From a virus, in IMG/VR virus record IMGVR_UViG_3300046009_003263, positions 1 through 27,429 of that record: DNA of 27,429 nt; one strand, written 5' to 3'. Below, in pieces: positions 7,866 to 26,021 of the stretch (the stretch's first letter is position 1; each line of letters opens with the position of its first letter). The position numbers were made by a program, and so were the translations under genes. The notes below the pieces were generated by a model that worked only from the letters and a program-made list of their open reading frames with translations, searched no databases and was not told where the DNA came from.

Positions 7866-7892
7866 GACATTCCCGTGTGACGCGGTTTTGTC
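7866..7892 (-). repeat. Dispersed 27-nt inverted repeat, copy 1 (reverse orientation)
   Basis: Read on the minus strand this is GACAAAACCG, loop CGTCACA, CGGGAATGTC, flanked by G and C that extend the pairing. It lies in the leader of the 232-aa gene, ending 24 nt before its chosen start. It shares its loop with the terminator copy at 15933-15959. It is the only copy in reverse orientation. Confidence 0.85.
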
Positions 7893-7916
7893 CGGTTCTT
7901 TATGATTGGATTGATT

Positions 7917-8615
7917 ATGTCTAATGTTCCTTCTGTTGTGGCTGACGCTGTCGCGTCGGTGTTTGTTCTGTCTGCTGAGTTGTCCGAGCGCGTTGCGGTT
8001 GCGGCTGAGATGGCGATGGATTCGGCGTTTGATTTCCGCAAGTCCTGCGATTCAATCGCGTCGGTGTTCGGTGCGGTCAAGTCTGACGGCGTTCTCAATT
8101 TTGATTCTTGGGAGGTTGTTCGCAAGAAATGGGAGGCCGTTGCATCGGTTCGGGCGCGGGATAATGGCGCTCTTGATCCTGACGGCGCGGCTAATGATCG
8201 TTGGCAGGATGTCTCTAAGTTCTTGCGGGAGTTTCACGGTCTGACTAAGCCCAAGTCGGCAAAGTCCGATTCTGTCGAAAAAGCGCAGAGACGCGCGGCT
8301 GAAAAGGATAAGGCGCTTGCTCAGGCTCAGGGTCGTTCGGCGGTTGAATTGCAGACTGAGGTTCTCGCGGCGTACGGTCTTGGCACACCTGACGGTGTGG
8401 CTCACGCCAAAGCCCTTGAGAAAGTTCAGAAGATTGTCGCGGTTGTTGAGAAGGACGCGATTGACGCGCAGATGAAGCCGTTGATCAATGCCGCGAACGA
8501 TCAGCATAAAAAGGTCATGGAGTATCTCAAGGGCAAAAATGACCCGAAGTTGATCGGCGATTATGTGGTTCTGTTGAAGTCCACGATTGATGCGTGGGAG
8601 TCTTTAAGTAAGTAA
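7917..8615 (+). CDS. Unknown protein, 232 aa, helical
   Basis: I do not recognise this protein. The start is taken as the ATG at 7917 (MSNVPSVVADAVASVFVLSAELSERVAVAAEMAMDSAF...), because the context 'GATTATGTCTAA' is shared with the next small gene; an in-frame ATG at 7902 would add five residues. The product is Ala-rich and mostly helical, with a Lys/Arg/Glu-rich stretch at about residues 115-140 that could be coiled coil, and no signal peptide or clear membrane span. Codon use favours G/C in the third position more than the neighbouring genes, hinting at a separate origin. It is preceded by its own promoter and followed by a hairpin and a very basic 30-aa peptide, so the two look like one unit. 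Confidence 0.75.
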   Translation: MSNVPSVVADAVASVFVLSAELSERVAVAAEMAMDSAFDFRKSCDSIASVFGAVKSDGVLNFDSWEVVRKKWEAVASVRARDNGALDPDGAANDRWQDVSKFLREFHGLTKPKSAKSDSVEKAQRRAAEKDKALAQAQGRSAVELQTEVLAAYGLGTPDGVAHAKALEKVQKIVAVVEKDAIDAQMKPLINAANDQHKKVMEYLKGKNDPKLIGDYVVLLKSTIDAWESLSK

Positions 8616-8621
8616 ACCCTT

Positions 8622-8644
8622 GGGGCGAGCGTGGTGCTTGCCCC
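8622..8644 (+). terminator. Hairpin between the 232-aa gene and basic peptide gene
   Basis: GGGGCGAGC (8622-8630) pairs with GCTTGCCCC (8636-8644) around a GTGGT loop: nine pairs including one G-U. The following TATTCT is only weakly T-rich, so it may be an attenuator or an mRNA-stabilising hairpin rather than a full terminator. It starts six nt after the stop codon of the 232-aa gene. Confidence 0.55.
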
Positions 8645-8666
8645 TATTCTCTAGAAAGGTGTGATT

Positions 8667-8759
8667 ATGTCTAAGCGACCCAAAGGTAAAACTAAAGCAT
8701 GGCGCAAGTCCGGTGATCGCAGTATGTCCGGGCGCATTCGGGCTTCCCGCCGCCGCTGA
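8667..8759 (+). CDS. Very basic 30-aa peptide
   Basis: The frame from ATG 8667 to TGA 8757-8759 encodes a 30-residue peptide beginning MSKRPKGKTKAWRKS and ending RASRRR, with 13 Lys/Arg and one acidic residue. A Shine-Dalgarno-like AGAAAGGTG lies just upstream. It is placed between a hairpin and a double hairpin terminator. The composition fits a nucleic-acid-binding or DNA-condensing peptide, by analogy with the small basic packaging protein J of microviruses, though I see no homology. A host-directed peptide is also possible. Being short, it could be a chance frame, but the start context matches that of the gene upstream. Confidence 0.55.
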   Translation: MSKRPKGKTKAWRKSGDRSMSGRIRASRRR

Positions 8760-8772
8760 TTTTTAAGAGCCA

Positions 8773-8832
8773 CCGCCTCGGACTGCGCAAGCAGTTTGGG
8801 GCGGAATCAGGCTTTGCCTGACCAGTTTTTTT
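8773..8832 (+). terminator. Tandem hairpins with T tract
   Basis: The first hairpin has a 14-bp stem (8773-8786 with 8791-8804, three G-U pairs) closed by a GCAA tetraloop. The second, TCAGGC/GCCTGA (8807-8812, 8816-8821), is followed after four nt by seven T (8826-8832). The G-U pairs mean that the structure is favoured in rightward RNA. It likely ends the 7829 transcript. Confidence 0.7.
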
Positions 8833-8934
8833 CTGACCAGTTCTTAACCAACGTAATAGCCCACGCCCACTCCCCGCCTTCCCTTGATCATCAAAGCAAC
8901 GTCATAGCCTATGTTAGTACTCACGGACTTCTCT

Positions 8935-9314
8935 ATTGTTCGGAATGTTCTTAATGTTCTAGGTAATTGTTCCATTGTAAGTCTTTGATTATAAAGGAAT
9001 GTTCTATTGTTCCGTGTTTTTGGCACTTTTGCACCGTCTGCAAATATTTTTCAATGCCTGTTCGAGGCACTCCGCAAGTGCGAATATTCTAGACCAAAAA
9101 ATACCCCCGTATAATAATTTAAAGAACATTAAGAACAATAGAACAATACACCTCAAACGGCTTGCCCTAGCCATTTCTATTGTTCTATAAAAATTTAAAA
9201 ATTTAGAACATTCCGAACATTAGGAACAAAACACGCTCCTGTAACTTGACATTGTAAACTTACCATGCTATAATATAGATTCATCAGTCGTAGTTTGTCC
9301 GCAACCTATTGTTC
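8935..9314. repeat. Iteron-like array of GAACAWT / AWTGTTC
   Basis: Twelve exact copies of GAACA(A/T)T on either strand occur at 8935, 8944, 8953, 8966, 8998, 9006, 9124, 9133, 9141, 9179, 9206 and 9215, plus a near copy at 9224 and one more exact copy at 9308. Copies are often 9 bp apart. Longer matches form inverted repeats: 8938-8951 with 9205-9218, 8947-8960 with 9123-9136, and 9001-9012 with 9133-9144. An AT-rich stretch follows at 9187-9205. This is the usual design of an iteron origin or of a multi-site operator; which one is not determined. Confidence 0.7.
9246..9274 (+). promoter_or_regulatory. Perfect consensus sigma70 promoter
   Basis: TTGACA (9246-9251), 17 nt, TATAAT (9269-9274). 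The start site would be near 9281, so a GAACAAT-type site at 9308-9314 falls in the early leader. It should be the main promoter of the accessory operon 9339-15838 and is flanked by the repeat array, suggesting repression or coupling to replication. Confidence 0.85.
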
Positions 9315-9338
9315 TACTTTCAGATTGGAGCCTGCCCT

Positions 9339-9608
9339 ATGTCAGACAAAACCGTGCCGCACGGGAATGTCCGTAAAGATCCTTACGCGACTTTGCCCCC
9401 CAAGCCTTGCCGCATCTGCAAGCAAGCCATCGACCTTCGTCGTGTAGTTCTAGAGAAGACCACATGCTTCGAGTGCCAACAGAACTTGGACATCACCGAG
9501 CCTGTAAAACACCTTGTTGCTATCGCATACAACAAGGGAGCCTACCAATACATCCACAACCCTGCCGACCTGTTCGACACCAACCCAAAACAACCAAGAG
9601 GAGCATGA
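9339..9608 (+). CDS. Small zinc-ribbon-like protein with repeat-encoded N-terminus
   Basis: The 89-aa product begins MSDKTVPHGNVRKDPYATLPP. Residues 3-11 (DKTVPHGNV) are encoded exactly by a copy of the 27-nt dispersed repeat. Next comes 'PCRICKQ...TTCFECQ', two CxxC pairs that could bind one zinc ion, as in zinc-ribbon proteins. The start at 9339 is supported by GGAG 10-11 nt upstream. It is the first gene after the consensus promoter. Its function is unknown; nucleic-acid or protein binding is plausible. The stop overlaps an alternative ATG of the next gene. Confidence 0.7.
   Translation: MSDKTVPHGNVRKDPYATLPPKPCRICKQAIDLRRVVLEKTTCFECQQNLDITEPVKHLVAIAYNKGAYQYIHNPADLFDTNPKQPRGA
9345..9371 (+). 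repeat. Dispersed 27-nt inverted repeat, copy 2 (in gene)
   Basis: GACAAAACCG, loop TGCCGCA, CGGGAATGTC. It covers codons 3-11 of the zinc-ribbon-like gene and reads DKTVPHGNV. In RNA, five outer and three inner pairs flank a symmetric AAA/GAA internal loop. Confidence 0.9.
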
Positions 9609-9610
9609 CC

Positions 9611-9964
9611 ATGAGCCAAGGGAACCTGACCCAAGTCTTAGTACACATGATGGAGCACCAACGACTTGTAGACCAAATCGTGAAACCAAACCTTGTACCC
9701 AAGCCAACCAAGTCCATTACCTTAAACGACAAGGTTCACGCCATTCGCGAGAATCACGTGGGCAAAGACAAACCCGTGGAGAACGGGATTGTCCGAGTGA
9801 TGGTCAAGGTTAACTACGGCACGGAGCACTTCTATCCTGCCAACCCAACCGCCGAATTGTTCCGCAAGGTTCAGGGCGGCAAGACCCTGACCAAAGCAAC
9901 CCTGAAAGTCTTAAAAGACGAGGGCTATGCTATTCAATATCGCTACGAGGAGCCTGCAATATGA
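9611..9964 (+). CDS. Unknown protein, 117 aa
   Basis: I do not recognise this 117-aa protein (MSQGNLTQVLVHMMEHQRLVDQIV...). The ATG at 9611 has AGAGGAG seven nt upstream; an ATG at 9605 is too close to that site. The N-terminal third is helical and the C-terminal part ('VRVMVKVNYGTEHFYPANPTAELFRKV...LTKATLKVLKDEGYAIQYRYEE') looks like an alpha-beta domain. It is coupled to neighbours: the previous stop lies two nt before, and its stop overlaps the next ATG (ATGA). Confidence 0.7.
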   Translation: MSQGNLTQVLVHMMEHQRLVDQIVKPNLVPKPTKSITLNDKVHAIRENHVGKDKPVENGIVRVMVKVNYGTEHFYPANPTAELFRKVQGGKTLTKATLKVLKDEGYAIQYRYEEPAI

Positions 9965-10155
9965 ACCAAAACATGACCCATCAGGAGGCGTTTTTCTTAA
10001 TGCTCAAGGCAGCAACGGTCTACTACAAGGTGAGTGCCGACTTTGACGCCGACGCCAATGCCTTTAAGCCGACCAAGGAAGAGGTACGCCTTGCCACGTT
10101 GTATCAGAACTACATCGACGAGATGGTGGCTATCGGGGGAGACTTTGACCTATGA
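9961..10155 (+). CDS. Unknown small protein, 64 aa
   Basis: The 64-aa acidic product MNQNMTHQEAFFLMLKAATVYYKVS... is probably helical, with no signal peptide or cysteine motif. It starts at an ATGA overlap with the gene before and ends in an ATGA overlap with the gene after, which supports translation. No family is recognised. Confidence 0.65.
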   Translation: MNQNMTHQEAFFLMLKAATVYYKVSADFDADANAFKPTKEEVRLATLYQNYIDEMVAIGGDFDL

Positions 10156-10268
10156 GCGAGATCGCTGAGTTTTTGCGTGCTTTGAACGGAGCGTTGGGGC
10201 TGATAGCCATAGCGTTCTGCGTGTACTTTTTAGCCTGCATTGTGATGGGCAGAGGGGATAAAGAATGA
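10152..10268 (+). CDS. Single-span membrane peptide, 38 aa
   Basis: The frame from ATG 10152 to TGA 10266-10268 encodes MSEIAEFLRALNGALGLIAIAFCVYFLACIVMGRGDKE. Residues about 13-32 form one hydrophobic membrane span with a charged C-terminal tail. Both ends overlap neighbours by four nt, a strong sign of translation in this tightly packed operon. Function unknown; small membrane peptides in phage early regions may affect the host envelope, but nothing here shows that. Confidence 0.6.
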   Translation: MSEIAEFLRALNGALGLIAIAFCVYFLACIVMGRGDKE

Positions 10269-10480
10269 AAAAGAAATATGTGGTGACGCAGTATTACAGG
10301 GTTGAGTTGGAGGTGGAGGCAGAGAGTCAATACGATGCGTTATGCATGATTACCGATGATGACCGCAATTTCTACACCGTAACTGCCAACATGGACAATC
10401 CCGACAACGATGTGAAAAACCTTGGTGTGTGGGCGGCAGACCTAGACACCGAGGCACACGAGATGGAGGGTGACAAATGA
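10265..10480 (+). CDS. Unknown small acidic protein, 71 aa
   Basis: The 71-aa product starts MKKKYVVTQYYRVELEVEAESQYDA and continues as an acidic protein with alternating hydrophobic residues in the first strand-like segment. The N-terminal part resembles many short phage proteins that form a strand-helix-strand unit, but I cannot name a family. It is joined by ATGA overlaps to the genes on both sides. Confidence 0.65.
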   Translation: MKKKYVVTQYYRVELEVEAESQYDALCMITDDDRNFYTVTANMDNPDNDVKNLGVWAADLDTEAHEMEGDK

Positions 10481-10656
10481 AAACATCGTGGTGGTATGAA
10501 TCAGGTGCTGCTGCGCAAGCAGCACAAGAGTTGGTGTGGTTCGTAGTAATAGTCATAGTGGGTATCGGCGTCATGGCATGGCGGGATATGAGGAAAGAGG
10601 ACAAAACCGTACAACGCGGGAATGTCCGCAAAGGGGGAAAAAATGAATCTAAGTAG
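10477..10656 (+). CDS. Small membrane protein with repeat-encoded tail, 59 aa
   Basis: The frame from ATG 10477 to TAG 10654-10656 encodes 59 aa. Residues about 19-37 (LVWFVVIVIVGIGVMAW) are a membrane span, followed by RDMRKE and then DKTVQRGNVRKGGKNESK. Residues 42-50 (DKTVQRGNV) come exactly from a copy of the 27-nt repeat and so form most of the cytoplasmic or periplasmic tail. It overlaps the gene before by four nt and the gene after by 14 nt. Function unknown. A 7-bp hairpin lies in the early codons at 10505-10525. Confidence 0.6.
   Translation: MKTSWWYESGAAAQAAQELVWFVVIVIVGIGVMAWRDMRKEDKTVQRGNVRKGGKNESK
10600..10626 (+). repeat. Dispersed 27-nt inverted repeat, copy 3 (in gene)
   Basis: GACAAAACCG, loop TACAACG, CGGGAATGTC, with flanking G and C. 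It encodes DKTVQRGNV in the small membrane protein and ends 16 nt before the next start codon, so as an RNA hairpin it could influence translation of the 309-aa gene. Confidence 0.9.
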
Positions 10657-11572
10657 CGCACTTCTGCCGAGGTTTTATAACTACGAGCAGGCAAAGGCAT
10701 ACCACGACTCTGTGGTTCCGTTCAGGTCAGGCAACAATAAGGCCAAGCGCCCCTTGGGTGCCCGTAGGTATGACTACTGCCAAATCCTGCACTACCCCGA
10801 GACCAACGCGGTAGCCTTGCAAATGTATGGGTCAGACGTGGTGACATGGTTCCCCAACGGCGAAGCCCACGTGTCTCTATGCAAGTACGACACCATCGGG
10901 ACAAGGCAGTTTATTTATGCCACGACAACCGACATCAGACACGAGCGGGGTGTGACCTACCTGTACGCGGGTGGTGCGACTGAGGGCGGGTGGTATGCGT
11001 TCGCGGACAGCGAGACCCCGTTGATCCTCAAAGATAGCAAAGTGATGAACCCTGTTCAGACGTATACGTACAAACCCCGCCGTGACGTGATAAAAGCATT
11101 GCACAAACGATATGGTGGTTTTAGAGAATACGTTAAGACTATGGGTCTGGTAATGACGGGCTTAACCGAAAAGGAAGTGGAAGAGGTGAGCATGCATCTA
11201 CCGAGGTATGAGAACCAACGCTTTATTAAGTTGACCCTGCCCATCGCACGCAACGTCTACTACCACGGTGCGATAAAGCCGAAGGAAAACCTGACTGCGT
11301 TCTTGCAAAACATCGAGAAGGCGCAGGCAACGGAGGATTTGCATGCCTACTACCATATGTTCGTGCATCTTGGGGTGTCCGCACTTCACTACAACGCATA
11401 CACGCACACCTACACGGTGGCATGGGCAAACAACGCGGGAGAAATTGGCAAGACCCTGCTTGAGTATTTCGATGAAATCATTAAACATATCCACAGAGAG
11501 GAGGTCTTTAGCAAAGTAGAAGTACCGATTGGAACAAAGTCAGCAAACGTCAACCGTAAATACTTTTTATAG
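10643..11572 (+). CDS. Unknown protein, 309 aa
   Basis: I do not recognise this 309-aa protein. The start at 10643 (MNLSSALLPRFYNYEQAKAYHDS) follows the Shine-Dalgarno-like AAAGGGGG; an ATG at 10622 lies inside the dispersed repeat and is less likely. The sequence is rich in aromatic residues and Tyr/His ('YDYCQILHYPETNAVALQMYGSDVVTWFPNG', 'YLYAGGATEGGWYAF'), suggesting a beta-rich N-terminal half, with a helical C-terminal half. No membrane span or catalytic motif is obvious. Another copy of the 27-nt repeat begins right after its stop codon. Confidence 0.7.
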   Translation: MNLSSALLPRFYNYEQAKAYHDSVVPFRSGNNKAKRPLGARRYDYCQILHYPETNAVALQMYGSDVVTWFPNGEAHVSLCKYDTIGTRQFIYATTTDIRHERGVTYLYAGGATEGGWYAFADSETPLILKDSKVMNPVQTYTYKPRRDVIKALHKRYGGFREYVKTMGLVMTGLTEKEVEEVSMHLPRYENQRFIKLTLPIARNVYYHGAIKPKENLTAFLQNIEKAQATEDLHAYYHMFVHLGVSALHYNAYTHTYTVAWANNAGEIGKTLLEYFDEIIKHIHREEVFSKVEVPIGTKSANVNRKYFL

Positions 11573-11599
11573 GACAAAACCGTGCGATACGGGAATGTC
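11573..11599 (+). repeat. Dispersed 27-nt inverted repeat, copy 4 (intergenic)
   Basis: GACAAAACCG, loop TGCGATA, CGGGAATGTC. The G of the preceding TAG stop codon supplies the outer G. It fills half of the 56-nt gap before the MoxR-like gene. Confidence 0.9.
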
Positions 11600-11628
11600 C
11601 AACAACATCAAACCAAAGAGGAAATAAA

Positions 11629-12717
11629 ATGGAAATTAATCTGAAGAGCCGTGTGACACTAGCCGAAGCCGCCGACATCGTTGTAGCGGTGGGTAATACC
11701 AACGCCTGCTACCTAGCGGGTGAGCCGGGGATCGGTAAGACTGCGATGCACGATACTATCGTGGCAAAAACAGGCATGCGGGGTATCTACATCGACGTGC
11801 CTAACCTAGAGTTGGGTGACCTTGGTGTGCCTGTGCCCAACCATGAGACTAAGACTACGACGTTCTATCCCAACGAGCATTGGGGGTTTCATACGGGCGA
11901 GCCGCTTGCCATATTCCTTGACGAGTTTACGAAGGGCGCACAGAACGTGCAGAACATGTTGCACCCACTATTGAACGAGCGACGCATCGGTGGGATGAAA
12001 CTGCATCCTGATTCTATCGTAATGCTTGCGGGTAATTTATCCGGCGATGGCGTAGGCGACAACATGAAAGCCCACACACGAGGCAGACTGACTGAGATCA
12101 GCGTGAAGAAACCACATGCCGGTATCAACGCCGACGGGACTATCGACCCTGACTCATGGGGCATGTACGCGGTGCAAAACGACGTAGCGCCCGAGGTTAT
12201 TACGTTCGTCAAAGAGTATCCGCAAGTGCTTGCTTCTTATCTTGATGGTGGGCAGGCAGAGAACCCATACATCTTTCACCCGAAGAAGCCACAGGTTACT
12301 TGCGTATCACCACGCACTTTGGTCAAGGGTAGCAACATCGTTAAGAAGCGTCTCAACATGACACATAATTCTCTAAAGACAGCACTTGAAGGTACCATCG
12401 GTGCGACGGCAGCGCGGGATATGTTGGCGTACTTAGAAGTTGCCGACTCACTTCCAACGTGGGAAGCCATCGTGAACAAACCCAACGAAGCACCCGTACC
12501 CTCATCTCCAGCAGCACTTTGCATCTTAGCGTTCAATGCATTGCAGAGAATTGACCGAGGCAGTATTGGCAAGTGGTTCGAGTACATGAAGCGCACGCCG
12601 AAGGAGTTGCAGTCTGTGTTCTGTCTGTCTGCTATGAAGTCTGATGCCAAGAAGTCATTGGTCATGACGAGCGCACCGTTTGTTACATGGATGCGTGAGA
12701 ATCAATACTTATTCTAA
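11629..12717 (+). CDS. MoxR-type AAA+ ATPase
   Basis: The 362-aa protein has Walker A GEPGIGKT (residues 31-38), Walker B LAIFLDEF (93-100, D98 and E99), sensor 1 at 'LAGN' (N136) and arginine-finger candidates in 'HTRGRL' (R151/R153). This matches the MoxR/CbbQ-like group of AAA+ ATPases, which act as hexameric remodelling chaperones together with a VWA-domain protein. Its partner follows after 12 nt. AGAGGAAATAAA precedes the start. In the family, the ATPase opens or inserts metal into a target complex; the target here is unknown. The C-terminal 150 residues are less conserved. Confidence 0.85.
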   Translation: MEINLKSRVTLAEAADIVVAVGNTNACYLAGEPGIGKTAMHDTIVAKTGMRGIYIDVPNLELGDLGVPVPNHETKTTTFYPNEHWGFHTGEPLAIFLDEFTKGAQNVQNMLHPLLNERRIGGMKLHPDSIVMLAGNLSGDGVGDNMKAHTRGRLTEISVKKPHAGINADGTIDPDSWGMYAVQNDVAPEVITFVKEYPQVLASYLDGGQAENPYIFHPKKPQVTCVSPRTLVKGSNIVKKRLNMTHNSLKTALEGTIGATAARDMLAYLEVADSLPTWEAIVNKPNEAPVPSSPAALCILAFNALQRIDRGSIGKWFEYMKRTPKELQSVFCLSAMKSDAKKSLVMTSAPFVTWMRENQYLF

Positions 12718-12729
12718 AAGGAAAAAACA

Positions 12730-13962
12730 ATGGCTAAATTAACTGCCGAGCAGCGCATCGAGAAAGCCCACGTGGCTCTCATGCGTCACAAGAAGTTCTG
12801 TTTGTTCTCAGGTCTATTCATGGTGGGTAAAGTCACCGTGGAAGAGTTGATGCCGACTGCCGCGACTGATGGTGTCAATGTGTTCTATGGTCGTGCGTTT
12901 GTTGACCGCTTAGACGATAAGCAGTTGGGGTTTCTCATCATTCACGAGGCCATGCACAAGGCATATCGACACTTAACAACCTGGGAAAAACTGTTTAAGA
13001 AGAACGCATCTCTAGCGAACGCTGCGTGTGACTACGTGATTAACTTGCAGATCAAGGACTACGATCCTGACGAGGAGATCGTGCGCATGCCGACTGACGA
13101 GGAAGACAACGTCATGGGGCTGATCGATGAACGGTTCCGTGGCATGGATACCCAACAGGTGTTCCTGATTCTTGAGAAAGAAGAGAAGGACAAGGGTGGC
13201 TCAGGTGGCTCACATAAGTCTGAGCCATCAGACAAAACCGCGCCGCACGGGAATGTCCCCCGAGGGTTCGACGAGCATCTATGGGAAGAGGCGGGGCAGA
13301 TGGATGAGAAGGAAGCCGAGCAGATTGCCAAGGAGATCGACAACGCCCTACGTCAAGGTGCTTTGCTTGCAGGCAAGATGAATGGTGGTGTGTCCCGTGA
13401 GATCCAAGAGTTGCTGACTGCCAAGATTGATTGGCGTGAGGTGCTTCGAGACTTCATCAAGCAGATTGCCAAAGGGTACGACGACTCATCGTGGCGACGG
13501 TTCAACAAGCGGTTGGTTGGGTCTGACATCTACATGCCAACGCCCATATCGCAACGGCTTAACTGTATCGCGCTAGGCATCGACACATCGGGGTCTATCG
13601 GCAACGCCGAGATGGCTGAGTTCTTAGCCGAGGTCAAGGCTATCTGCGAGGAAGTCACACCACAGAAGGTAGAGTTAATGTATTGGGACAGCCATGTGGC
13701 AGGGCACGAGACGTATGAGGAAGGCGCCGTGCAACATCTGACTGATTCCACGAAACCACGAGGTGGTGGGGGTACTAATCCTAACTGCGTCATCAAGTTC
13801 ATGGGTGACAAGCAGATGGAACCCGACTGCATCGTGATGCTAACTGACGGATGCTTCTTCGATGGGGAGGGTGATTGGAGCAACGTCAGCGCCCCCTTGT
13901 TGTGGTGCATCAAAGACAACAAACAGTTCACACACAAGTATGGAAAGGCGGTGCATCTATGA
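12730..13962 (+). CDS. HExxH metallopeptidase-like plus VWA protein
   Basis: The 410-aa protein joins an N-terminal putative zinc-metallopeptidase domain, with HEAMH at residues 72-76 ('LIIHEAMHKAYRH'), to a C-terminal VWA domain with MIDAS motif DTSGS (285-289) and 'MLTDG' near 380. This is the DUF2201-type layout. VWA proteins of this type work with MoxR ATPases, and the gene before encodes one. Residues 168-176 (DKTAPHGNV) in the flexible Gly/Ser linker are encoded by a copy of the 27-nt dispersed repeat. The next gene starts at an ATGA overlap. Protease activity is inferred; only the motif is seen. Confidence 0.83.
   Translation: MAKLTAEQRIEKAHVALMRHKKFCLFSGLFMVGKVTVEELMPTAATDGVNVFYGRAFVDRLDDKQLGFLIIHEAMHKAYRHLTTWEKLFKKNASLANAACDYVINLQIKDYDPDEEIVRMPTDEEDNVMGLIDERFRGMDTQQVFLILEKEEKDKGGSGGSHKSEPSDKTAPHGNVPRGFDEHLWEEAGQMDEKEAEQIAKEIDNALRQGALLAGKMNGGVSREIQELLTAKIDWREVLRDFIKQIAKGYDDSSWRRFNKRLVGSDIYMPTPISQRLNCIALGIDTSGSIGNAEMAEFLAEVKAICEEVTPQKVELMYWDSHVAGHETYEEGAVQHLTDSTKPRGGGGTNPNCVIKFMGDKQMEPDCIVMLTDGCFFDGEGDWSNVSAPLLWCIKDNKQFTHKYGKAVHL
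13231..13257 (+). repeat. Dispersed 27-nt inverted repeat, copy 5 (in gene)
   Basis: GACAAAACCG, loop CGCCGCA, CGGGAATGTC. It encodes DKTAPHGNV in frame in the linker of the HExxH/VWA protein, next to 'GGSGGSHKSEPS'. The outer G is replaced by A here. Confidence 0.9.
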
Positions 13963-14120
13963 AAGAGGAAAGCAAATCAGTACGGGTGAGCCTTGAGGCA
14001 TACGAGACCCTGCGTCTTTTGCAGGGGGACTTTGCCAAGCAAGTGGGGTTCACTCCATCTATCACACAGGTCATTGAATATCTTGCTTCTAAAGAAATGA
14101 AAGAGAGGAATAAATCATGA
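13959..14120 (+). CDS. Ribbon-helix-helix-like small protein, 53 aa
   Basis: The 53-aa product 'MKEESKSVRVSLEAYETLR...' has the pattern of a ribbon-helix-helix DNA-binding protein: strand SVRVSLEAY, helix TLRLLQGDFAKQVG, then TPSITQVIEYLASKE as second helix. Such proteins bind operators as dimers, and this one may regulate this operon or the repeats near it; that is inference. The start at 13959 is an ATGA overlap with the VWA gene and has AAGGCGG upstream. Its stop overlaps the next ATG in the same way. Confidence 0.7.
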   Translation: MKEESKSVRVSLEAYETLRLLQGDFAKQVGFTPSITQVIEYLASKEMKERNKS

Positions 14121-14980
14121 GTTCATTCGGAATCGAAACAAGCGCCATGCTTGTAGAGTTATCAATTAGTTGCTGGACTGCCCGCAAGTTAGACAAGCGT
14201 GTTTCTCAAGAAGTAGATGCTACTAACGGTACGAAGGCCCGCGCAGGTAACTACAACAAGAACCTACTTGCAGGTACACAGAAGTTGGACAACATCGTGA
14301 AGTTCGCGGCTAACGCTCGGGCTTGGCACAACGTCAACACCTTGCCGTGGTCAGACAACGGACTACGACTGTTGCCTGTGGAAAACTTTCTACCGTACAA
14401 GGAACGGCTTAGTGAGTTGGAGCAGGAATACAACGCATTGGTGCAAGACTTCTTGACTTCTTATCCTGATTTAGTTGACGCGGCTGCGTTCCAATTGAGC
14501 AACCTATTCGACAGAAGCGAGTACCCCGCAGCGGAAGATATTGCCGGTAAGTTCCGGTTCCGTTACATGTTCTCGCCTGTGCCGACAGCAGGGGATTGGC
14601 GCATATCTGTGGGGCAGCAGGCACGCAATGAGTTGGAGATGCAATGCAACAATGCTATCGAAGAGCGTGTCAAGGGGGCTATGAAAGAAGCGTGGTCTCG
14701 ACTGCATGAATGTTTATCCCATGTTAGCGAAAGGCTTGAGGATACTCAGCAGGACGCCAAGAAGAAAATATTCCGTGACTCCTTGGTGGAGAACGCTCAA
14801 GACTTAATCGAGATGCTCAAGGTACTCAACGTAACAAAAGACCCTGAGTTGGAACGGGCACGAGTTCTGATGGCTCAGACGTTCACGGGGCTAGAAGCCA
14901 AAGACTTGCGTGATAGTGATGCCGCACGTCAAGGTGTGAAAGCCGAAGTTGATTCAATACTATCTAAATTTAATTTCTGA
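14117..14980 (+). CDS. DUF3150-like coiled-coil protein, 287 aa
   Basis: The 287-aa product starts MSSFGIETSAMLVELSISCWTARKLDKRVSQEV and continues with a helical domain including 'YKERLSELEQEYNALVQDFLTSYPDLV' and 'FRFRYMFSPVPTAGDWRI', then long charged helices (about residues 170-230). The first strand-helix 'SISCWTARKLD' and the total layout resemble DUF3150 proteins, which in many phages and plasmids lie beside MoxR and VWA genes; I am moderately sure. It follows the RHH gene at an ATGA overlap. Function in the family is not established; a structural partner or substrate adaptor of the MoxR-VWA pair is plausible. Confidence 0.6.
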   Translation: MSSFGIETSAMLVELSISCWTARKLDKRVSQEVDATNGTKARAGNYNKNLLAGTQKLDNIVKFAANARAWHNVNTLPWSDNGLRLLPVENFLPYKERLSELEQEYNALVQDFLTSYPDLVDAAAFQLSNLFDRSEYPAAEDIAGKFRFRYMFSPVPTAGDWRISVGQQARNELEMQCNNAIEERVKGAMKEAWSRLHECLSHVSERLEDTQQDAKKKIFRDSLVENAQDLIEMLKVLNVTKDPELERARVLMAQTFTGLEAKDLRDSDAARQGVKAEVDSILSKFNF

Positions 14981-14992
14981 TTGGAGAAACCT

Positions 14993-15838
14993 ATGAAGAT
15001 TAAAAACCTGCGCCAAGGCGCAACCCTCGCACCCCGACTACAAGAGGTACTTGATTTGGTCTATGCCAAGCGCCCCCTTCTAGAGTATGAGGTGGAATCG
15101 TATTCCGACAATCACTATGTCGAGACCGTTAAGGTATGGCAAGACGGACAAAAGGTGGGCAAGATCTACTCGCGTTATCAACGGTACAGTCCTACTAATG
15201 GAACAACCGAGATGTGGTATGCCCTTGAGTCCGACAATATCAAGAAGTCACGGGGGGATCGTGATACCAAGTATTGCAAGAACGCCAAGGTAGCAGCACG
15301 TACTGCAATAGAAGCATTTACGAAGAAGCCTCTGGCAGAGTTGGGCAAGAGTCTAATTTCAAATGTCAAGTACGCAGTAGAGTCTATGCACGAAAAAGTT
15401 GAGAGGGACTATCGGAACTCAATCAGTATTAATTCCCTAGAACTTGCTAATTACTTTGTCGATGTAGTCATGGCTAACAACCCCCCTGTGCCAAAGCGGA
15501 TCATCGACTCAATGAGTAGTAACGACACAATACGGAAGGGAGAAAACTATGAGATTGCCTGCAATGTGTTTGCTCACTTAAAAGCCAACAACGGCTATGC
15601 TATCAGGGTTATGCAAGATGAAACATTACTGTGTGCGCATATAGGCAACCCTGATACGACTAGCAAACACCAAAGCACTTATGAGTTGGATCAGTACACA
15701 CAGGAAAAATTTACCATGCTCAAATTGCTAGACAAGAATCAGTTTGCTGCCGACATCGGCATTAAGTATGAGAGCGACGACGGTGTTAAGAAAGAAACAA
15801 TCTATTTCATCGTAGCAGGCGAAACCAAGATTATGTAA
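14993..15838 (+). CDS. Unknown protein, 281 aa
   Basis: I do not recognise this 281-aa protein. The start at 14993 (MKIKNLRQGATLAPRLQEVLDLVYAKRPLLEYEVESY) follows TTGGAGAAACCT, a good Shine-Dalgarno at eight nt. An N-terminal alpha-beta domain with several Tyr-rich strands ('VETVKVWQDGQKVGKIYSRYQRYS', 'EMWYALESDN') is followed by helices and a C-terminal beta segment. It is the last gene of the accessory operon, with a hairpin and terminator downstream. No membrane span or metal motif is seen. Confidence 0.7.
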   Translation: MKIKNLRQGATLAPRLQEVLDLVYAKRPLLEYEVESYSDNHYVETVKVWQDGQKVGKIYSRYQRYSPTNGTTEMWYALESDNIKKSRGDRDTKYCKNAKVAARTAIEAFTKKPLAELGKSLISNVKYAVESMHEKVERDYRNSISINSLELANYFVDVVMANNPPVPKRIIDSMSSNDTIRKGENYEIACNVFAHLKANNGYAIRVMQDETLLCAHIGNPDTTSKHQSTYELDQYTQEKFTMLKLLDKNQFAADIGIKYESDDGVKKETIYFIVAGETKIM

Positions 15839-15930
15839 GGTTTGACGTAACCCGTATTGCAGATGCGGTAAGTAGTATCCAATCAGCCTGCGTGGGACAG
15901 GTTAATCTGCTAATCCCACACCTTTCCTCA

Positions 15931-15966
15931 CGGACAAAACCGCGTCACACGGTTTTGTCCGTTTTT
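15931..15966 (+). terminator. Rho-independent terminator built from repeat copy 6
   Basis: CGGACAAAACCG (15931-15942) pairs fully with CGGTTTTGTCCG (15950-15961) around CGTCACA, then TTTTTC. It ends the accessory operon. A weaker hairpin GTGGGA/TCCCAC (15892-15897, 15914-15919) precedes it. Confidence 0.88.
15933..15959 (+). repeat. Dispersed 27-nt repeat, copy 6 (symmetrised)
   Basis: GACAAAACCG, loop CGTCACA, CGGTTTTGTC. The right arm has TTT where the other five copies have GAA, so the stem is perfect. The loop is identical to that of copy 1. Confidence 0.85.
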
Positions 15967-25766: not shown

Positions 25767-26021
25767 ATGACGGAATCTCGTGGTTATTCGTCTCGGTTAG
25801 TCGAGCACAATAAGAATGCCCCCGCAACCCACCCCGGCGTAATGCTGGGGAGGTTGTGTATTGCTCAAGATATTTCAGTTATTGATGCTGCTCAGTTCTT
25901 TGGCGTAAGCCGCATGACCGTTTACAAATGGTTCAGAGGCGAAGCACTGCCGCGCAAGAAATTTATTGAAGATATTGAGGGGGTAATTGCCAAATTAAAA
26001 AGTAAAGCCCGTTTGGATTAG
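25767..26021 (+). CDS. Helix-turn-helix protein, Xre-like
   Basis: The 84-aa protein contains 'HPGVMLGRLCIAQDISVIDAAQFFGVSRMTVYKWFRGEALPRKKFIEDIEGVI', a complete Xre/HigA-type helix-turn-helix. The first helix pattern 'HPGVML' is like that of HigA antitoxins, but no HigB toxin is next to it. It may be a phage regulator. It lies two nt after the SSB-like gene and two nt before the primase gene. Confidence 0.8.
   Translation: MTESRGYSSRLVEHNKNAPATHPGVMLGRLCIAQDISVIDAAQFFGVSRMTVYKWFRGEALPRKKFIEDIEGVIAKLKSKARLD

Follow-up and report, generated by a model that had tools for sequence, protein, structure and literature searches.

The viral DNA held as IMG/VR record IMGVR_UViG_3300046009_003263 (positions 1 to 27,429; this whole stretch of 27,429 nucleotides (nt) is called the window below) carries a 27-bp inverted repeat in several dispersed copies, and the question raised by the locus is what reads these repeats and to what effect. 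The original prediction listed six copies, with constant arms and a variable 7-nt loop, and suggested either a bound RNA or DNA motif or a small mobile element. All six copies were confirmed and a seventh, site 3 of Table 1, had been overlooked. Comparison with related phages leads us to consider it probable that the repeats are dyad operators bound by the product of the adjoining gene, g7917, which would silence early transcription and may confer a switchable immunity of phage against phage.

Five of the seven copies (sites 1, 2, 4, 5 and 6) match GACAAAACCG-N7-CGGGAATGTC exactly. Site 7 is a perfect palindrome with arms GACAAAACCGCGTCACACGGTTTTGTC, three mismatches away from the pattern on either strand, and site 3, GACAAACCCGTGGAGAACGGGATTGTC, lies within a coding region and carries two mismatches. 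Dinucleotide shuffling of the window left 0 pattern matches on average, and a position weight matrix scan of the whole window returned the same seven sites, with nothing further exceeding the shuffled maximum. The consensus is a 27-bp DNA dyad, GACA-WWW-CCG-Y-N5-R-CGG-WWW-TGTC, which frequently reaches further out (GGACA...TGTCC). The 7-nt loop proved to be constrained: every class A site tabulated (those of the window, L003, L005 and L019) has a pyrimidine as the first loop base and, except at one site which can be read either way, a purine as the last. What had been taken for a conserved internal RNA loop is a variable A/T-rich step found in either orientation, with site 1 reversed relative to the other sites of the window.

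Outside the lineage of the window, the pattern is virtually absent from the collections searched. Among 2.9 million viral contigs the exact pattern was found in only four others, a near-identical 36.8-kb twin record (L001/G001), a fragment (L002) and the relatives L003 and L005. A motif search of 85k genomes produced one match, in a Polaromonas contig, inside an unrelated gene and on its coding strand; the minus-strand open reading frame there resembles a periplasmic solute-binding protein, and the match was set aside as chance.

Searches with the terminase and VWA genes yielded about 130 related loci, and the lineage that carries the repeats includes freshwater and other phages. Throughout, contigs are metagenomic, open reading frames were called by simple rules, promoters are predicted and the label "early" derives from gene order. 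Relatives carry 5-10 sites each, in the same early segment of ~8-10 kb and often at identical positions. Nearly every site of a given phage has the same sequence, which differs from phage to phage, the forms seen including GACA..CCG/CGG..TGTC, AACA..CCG/CGG..TGTT, GACA..CCTAG/CTAGG..TGTC and many more. L019, with a terminase 89% identical, has five sites, matching those of the window at 7866, 9345, 9767, 10600 and 13231, with arms GACAAATCCG..CGGAWTTGTC. Class B, defined by outer arms AACA..TGTT, is found in L100, L101, L102 and L109 and class C, GACA-WW-CCTAG-N5-CTAGG-WW-TGTC, in L103, L106 and L108, while L107 and L101 are mixed in class. In the VWA gene one dyad has been exchanged for another with the 27-bp length unchanged. 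Positional conservation in close relatives, to which the original prediction had looked, was thus found, with the sequence of the sites changing in concert.

These comparisons bear directly on the proposal of a small mobile palindromic element or miniature inverted-repeat transposable element (MITE). Such an element would account for dispersed near-identical copies, four of which are intragenic and all in one frame, but relatives share the positions, replacement within coding sequence is base for base and without change in length, and the pattern is virtually confined to the lineage in the collections searched. In the relatives compared, no insertions at non-orthologous places with a gain in length were seen. 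The sole case of presence and absence is site 5, which is missing from L019. A site between g10643 and the MoxR gene is present in G009, G014, G015, G016, G017, G021 and G026, and far relatives retain one site ahead of the MoxR gene and another after g14993. Because far relatives hold the site preceding MoxR, site 5 is probably ancestral and the difference probably reflects loss in the L019 group and not gain. We consider a mobile element very improbable.

Distant relatives carry private dyad families, for which a de novo finder gave 4-10 copies as against 1-3 in shuffled sequence; examples are GACAAAGTGTCA-N5-TGACACTATGTC in L124 and GACAAAGTTAYA..TGTAACTTTGTC in L132, each present ten times, and ACTTGGCGACAT-N-ATGTCGCTAAGT, present eight times in L118. 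No convincing palindrome array was detected in the first 50 kb of the cultured relatives HTVC027P, DSL-LC04 and 023Pt_psg01. Two relatives, G009 and G021, of 62 and 67 kb, appear complete on the evidence of terminal overlaps of 57 and 127 nt, and every site in them lies within 9-10 kb of the genome. The earlier claim that copies are absent from structural and replication genes therefore holds for the window, its 36.8-kb twin and both of these genomes. Other dispersed palindrome sets were seen in the terminase/VWA relatives L029 (AACTTACTGTC-N-GACAGTAAGTT, seven copies), L028, L031, L039, L133/G027 (dyads of the TATAAACA type), L141, L144 and L145.

Whether the motif acts as RNA or as DNA can be approached through its mismatches, given that an RNA helix is expected to tolerate G.U over A.C. 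Counted from the centre of the dyad, positions 4-7 and 10-13 of 148 sites read on the transcript strand showed the opposite bias, with 29 A.C and 10 G.U mismatches. The asymmetric inner step can point either with or against transcription and, in G014, G023 and G026, the nearest predicted promoter is closely preceded by a site; in other phages the site lies ~50-110 bp downstream of a promoter. These three features favour a double-stranded DNA site, and the repeats probably serve as docking sites on the DNA. RNA hairpins acting in the transcript, in processing, antitermination or translational control, and bound by g7917 or by another RNA-binding protein, would fit with the observations that all sites of the window appear to be transcribed and fold as hairpins and that site 7 resembles an intrinsic terminator. 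It may indeed double as one, although a GC-rich hairpin followed by a T run is a property of site 7 and its orthologs only. Since, in addition, an Rfam scan of the window gave no family at gathering score, we judge RNA hairpins to be unlikely, and of the bound RNA or DNA motif first proposed it is the DNA half that is favoured.

The link between the DNA sites and g7917 emerges from pairs of phages which are nearly identical and yet differ in site class. G012 (class A') and G008 (class C) share 35.8% amino acid (aa) identity in g7917, as against 99.4% in terminase, 98.7% in g6672, 97.8% in g10643, 98.6% in MoxR and 97.8% in VWA. For G006 (class B) and G007 (class C) the value for g7917 is 37.5%, and terminase, MoxR and polA are 96.7, 99.2 and 95.5% identical, respectively. 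At the VWA site of G012 and G008, 14 of the 27 site bases match and the flanks are 97-98% identical; this site alone is relied on, some of the 200-bp flank identities elsewhere having come from gapped alignments. Within class C (G007-G008) g7917 is 61% identical, compared with 31-37% between class C and other classes, and both halves of the protein vary between classes.

A similar picture was obtained across phages. For eight close phages, which are not independent samples, the partial Spearman correlation between site and g7917 divergence, given MoxR, was 0.90 (Mantel p=0.0002), and the control genes g6672, terminase, VWA, g14117 and g10643 gave 0.01-0.34 (p>=0.056) in the same test. With 19 phages, g7917 reached a partial correlation of 0.58 and no control gene exceeded 0.36. 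The gene was picked as the candidate after the data had been seen, and the two decisive pairs agree with the choice. Members of the g7917 family, in one or two copies adjoining sites, are present in most site-bearing phages that cover the locus. Two g7917 paralogs per phage, which might act differently, for example as repressor and anti-repressor, were observed in L120, L110, L124, L115 and L076, and in G027 the first gene occupies the g7917 position and has no detectable similarity to g7917.

The AlphaFold2 model of g7917 combines an N-domain of four helices with a long coiled coil (mean predicted local distance difference test score (pLDDT) 85.6, predicted template modelling score (pTM) 0.52), and the protein, which represents a new helical coiled-coil family, probably dimerises via the coiled coil. 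Nothing convincing was found for it in Pfam or the PDB, and Foldseek searches of the model against the PDB and BFVD gave nothing significant; its binding of the sites is proposed from co-variation.

In the mechanism that we propose, g7917, as the first early gene, would be made first and its product would recognise the dyad operators, binding its own operator at site 1, with autoregulation as the result, as well as the site that closely follows the strong early promoter and the remaining sites along the early unit of ~8 kb, up to the polA module. Bound protein would act both as repressor and as roadblock, preventing initiation and elongation of early transcription. This could serve a late shut-off of early genes or the silencing of incoming phages of the same class, and same-class exclusion is favoured because the pairs diversify between near-identical phages. 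A new pair of g7917 and sites would escape silencing, and protein and sites would consequently diversify together, as heteroimmune repressor/operator sets do. A tyrosine integrase (PF00589) was not detected in 12 records, nor were a serine recombinase (PF00239) and ParA (PF13614) in eight records that included G009 and G021, and for this reason the phages appear unlike ordinary temperate phages. It is possible, and we suggest it tentatively, that g7917 and the array of 27-bp operators constitute an immunity-type specificity system, exchanged or re-evolved as a set between ~98% identical phages that lack detectable lysogeny genes, and presumably silencing superinfecting phages of the same class.

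Several observations weigh against the proposed mechanism. The protein has no helix-turn-helix (HTH) or other Pfam DNA-binding domain and no recognisable DNA-binding fold; sites within coding sequence and distant from promoters are unusual for simple operators; and, with neither integrase nor ParA found, a stable prophage in need of a repressor is not evident. The site-bearing phages G022 and G027 have no detectable g7917 homolog, and L003 has kept class A arms although its g7917 is only 41-43% identical. Over all phages, the weaker correlations of some control genes were still nominally significant (for example, 0.36 for g6672). Class B phages retain one unconverted site, and two contigs mix classes. 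One of these, L101/G005, has a class C first site and a C-type g7917 followed by class B sites; since it is 100% identical to the pure class B record G010 past the first ~1.2 kb, and the odd part is a contig end, it is likely to be an assembly chimera. The other, L107/G011, changes class where both possible parents are ~96-99% identical to it and may be either a true recombinant or a chimera.

A further difficulty is that g9340/g9629 differ as well in the decisive pairs (45%, one alignment), as would be expected if another trans-acting factor, encoded by such a phage gene or by the host, read the sites and g7917, which physically adjoins site 1, merely hitchhiked beside it. However, g9629 is 58% identical within class C but 90% identical between classes A and B, a divergence that does not follow class, and the decisive pairs, though of different classes, share 98-100% identity in g6672, on the far side of site 1. 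A host regulator would not vary among near-identical phages unless their hosts vary. The small HTH protein g25767 (25767-26021), which is conserved in most of the relatives covering its locus, was rejected as the binder because its recognition helix, VSRMT-YKWF, barely changes among phages whose sites are entirely different, and we conclude that it regulates something other than the dyads. We therefore assign a low probability to another factor. Two more candidates were discarded, the HTH protein g19322, which is not conserved, and g10643, which evolves fast (43-51% identical to that of the window) but is 98% identical between G012 and G008, phages of different classes.

Binding by g7917 could also have an architectural purpose, with the sites serving partition, as a centromere, replication or organisation of the DNA and not as transcriptional operators. 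Many identical dyads clustered within 8-10 kb, some of them far from promoters, together with a coiled-coil protein would suit such a role. It is rendered improbable, in our view, by the lack of a ParA-type ATPase in the eight records searched, the two apparently complete genomes included, by the roughly fixed spacing of the first sites from early promoters, and by the rapid switching of class, which suits immunity better than housekeeping. Transcriptional operators thus remain the preferred interpretation.

Among known systems, lambdoid phages exchange the cI repressor and its operators jointly between otherwise similar phages, giving rise to heteroimmunity, and their operators are located at two control regions, unlike the sites described here, which are scattered along an 8-kb unit and also fall within genes. 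The nearest analogue is the repressor/stoperator system of Cluster A mycobacteriophages, followed by MrpR/SPBRE of SPbeta. Cluster A repressors (L5, Bxb1, TipsytheTRex) have many dispersed sites, most of them off promoters, and a site close to the gene for the repressor; the consensus is specific to each genome and changes along with the repressor, and there are heteroimmune relatives. The sites of L5, more than 20 across a temperate genome, are asymmetric, span 13 bp, follow the direction of transcription and are recognised by an HTH monomer, and an integrase or ParABS is present (PMC6550527, PMC9283540). The present phages resemble them in their multiple, dispersed, genome-specific sites in transcribed regions and in the co-divergence of the site consensus with a candidate regulator. 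They differ in having 5-10 palindromic 27-bp dyads, in both orientations and limited to the early segment, and a candidate regulator from an unrelated, non-HTH coiled-coil family, with no integrase or ParA found. Lacking the asymmetric, oriented site and the HTH repressor, the system would work like that of Cluster A without being a member of it.

The SPbeta repeat SPBRE was likewise dispersed and first noticed in silico; it is a 15-bp intergenic motif later demonstrated by chromatin affinity purification sequencing (ChAP-seq) to be the site of MrpR, a master repressor encoded by the temperate prophage and possessing an unexpected tyrosine-recombinase-like fold, and class switching of the present kind is not described in the part of the published account drawn on here (PMC10516654). 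The g7917 model, in contrast, is all-helical and gave no tyrosine-recombinase-like structural match, in line with the PF00589 result above. Dispersed operators co-diverging with their regulator were known in temperate phages of Actinobacteria, and dispersed operators in SPbeta, and what is new here is the candidate regulator family g7917 in a system working like a known one. A literature search revealed no report of the same arrays in the collection searched, and papers beyond it may describe them. If the proposal is correct, immunity-like specificity groups structure populations of phages that are apparently virulent. The coupling of gene and sites is very sharp, and the many matched pairs of g7917 variant and site consensus form a natural data set from which it could be decoded how an unknown DNA-binding fold sets its specificity.

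The sites, at 7866-15959, occupy the opening part of a rightward early unit, which begins at g7917, continues with small genes, g10643, the MoxR-like ATPase gene, the DUF2201/VWA gene and two further genes, and stops before the VRR-NUC gene and DNA polymerase A. The terminase-portal unit leaves the same region in the leftward direction. Site 2 lies ~70-95 bp downstream of the -10 box of the predicted early promoter, with a similar spacing in close relatives, and in most relatives the promoter consensus occurs with 0-1 mismatches upstream of a site.

Table 1. Repeat sites and associated features of the window.
Feature	Positions	Strand	Description	Counterparts in relatives
Site 1	7866-7892	-	24 bp before ATG (7917) of g7917	Position matched in L005, L003, L019 and class B and C relatives
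g7917	7917-8615	+	232 aa; proposed cognate DNA-binding protein, new family
Sigma70-type promoter (predicted)	9246-9274	+	Exact match to consensus TTGACA-N17-TATAAT
Site 2	9345-9371	+	Codons 3-11 of small gene starting at 9339	Orthologous copies in L019, L100, L102, L103, L106
Site 3 (degenerate)	9767-9793	+	Inside gene ending at 9964	Orthologs in L019 and class B; the class B ortholog retained GACA/TGTC
Site 4	10600-10626	+	3' end of g10477; 16 bp before ATG (10643) of g10643	Orthologs in close relatives covering the locus
Site 5	11573-11599	+	Intergenic, before MoxR-like ATPase gene (11629)
MoxR-like AAA ATPase	11629-12717	+	Pfam AAA_5, PHROG 1297
DUF2201 metallopeptidase/VWA-like gene	12730-13962	+	Holds site 6; Pfam PF13203, PF09967
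Site 6	13231-13257	+	In frame, linker of VWA/metallopeptidase gene 12730-13962	Linker carries class B/C dyads of the same 27-bp length
Site 7	15933-15959	.	Perfect dyad, then T-rich run; last site, before VRR-NUC gene (16055) and polA	T-rich run kept in classes B and C

The gene holding site 6 belongs to a family called "HNH endonuclease" by PHROG 1314 and in several RefSeq phages, whereas Pfam identifies DUF2201 metallopeptidase and VWA-like domains, and the former label is a probable mis-annotation. Upstream of the early promoter, at 8932-9229, GGAATGTTC / AGAACATT(A) is repeated in both inverted and direct orientation and may mark an origin or the place where a second regulator binds; elements resembling these, GAACATT/TTGTTC, were also seen in L019 and L076.

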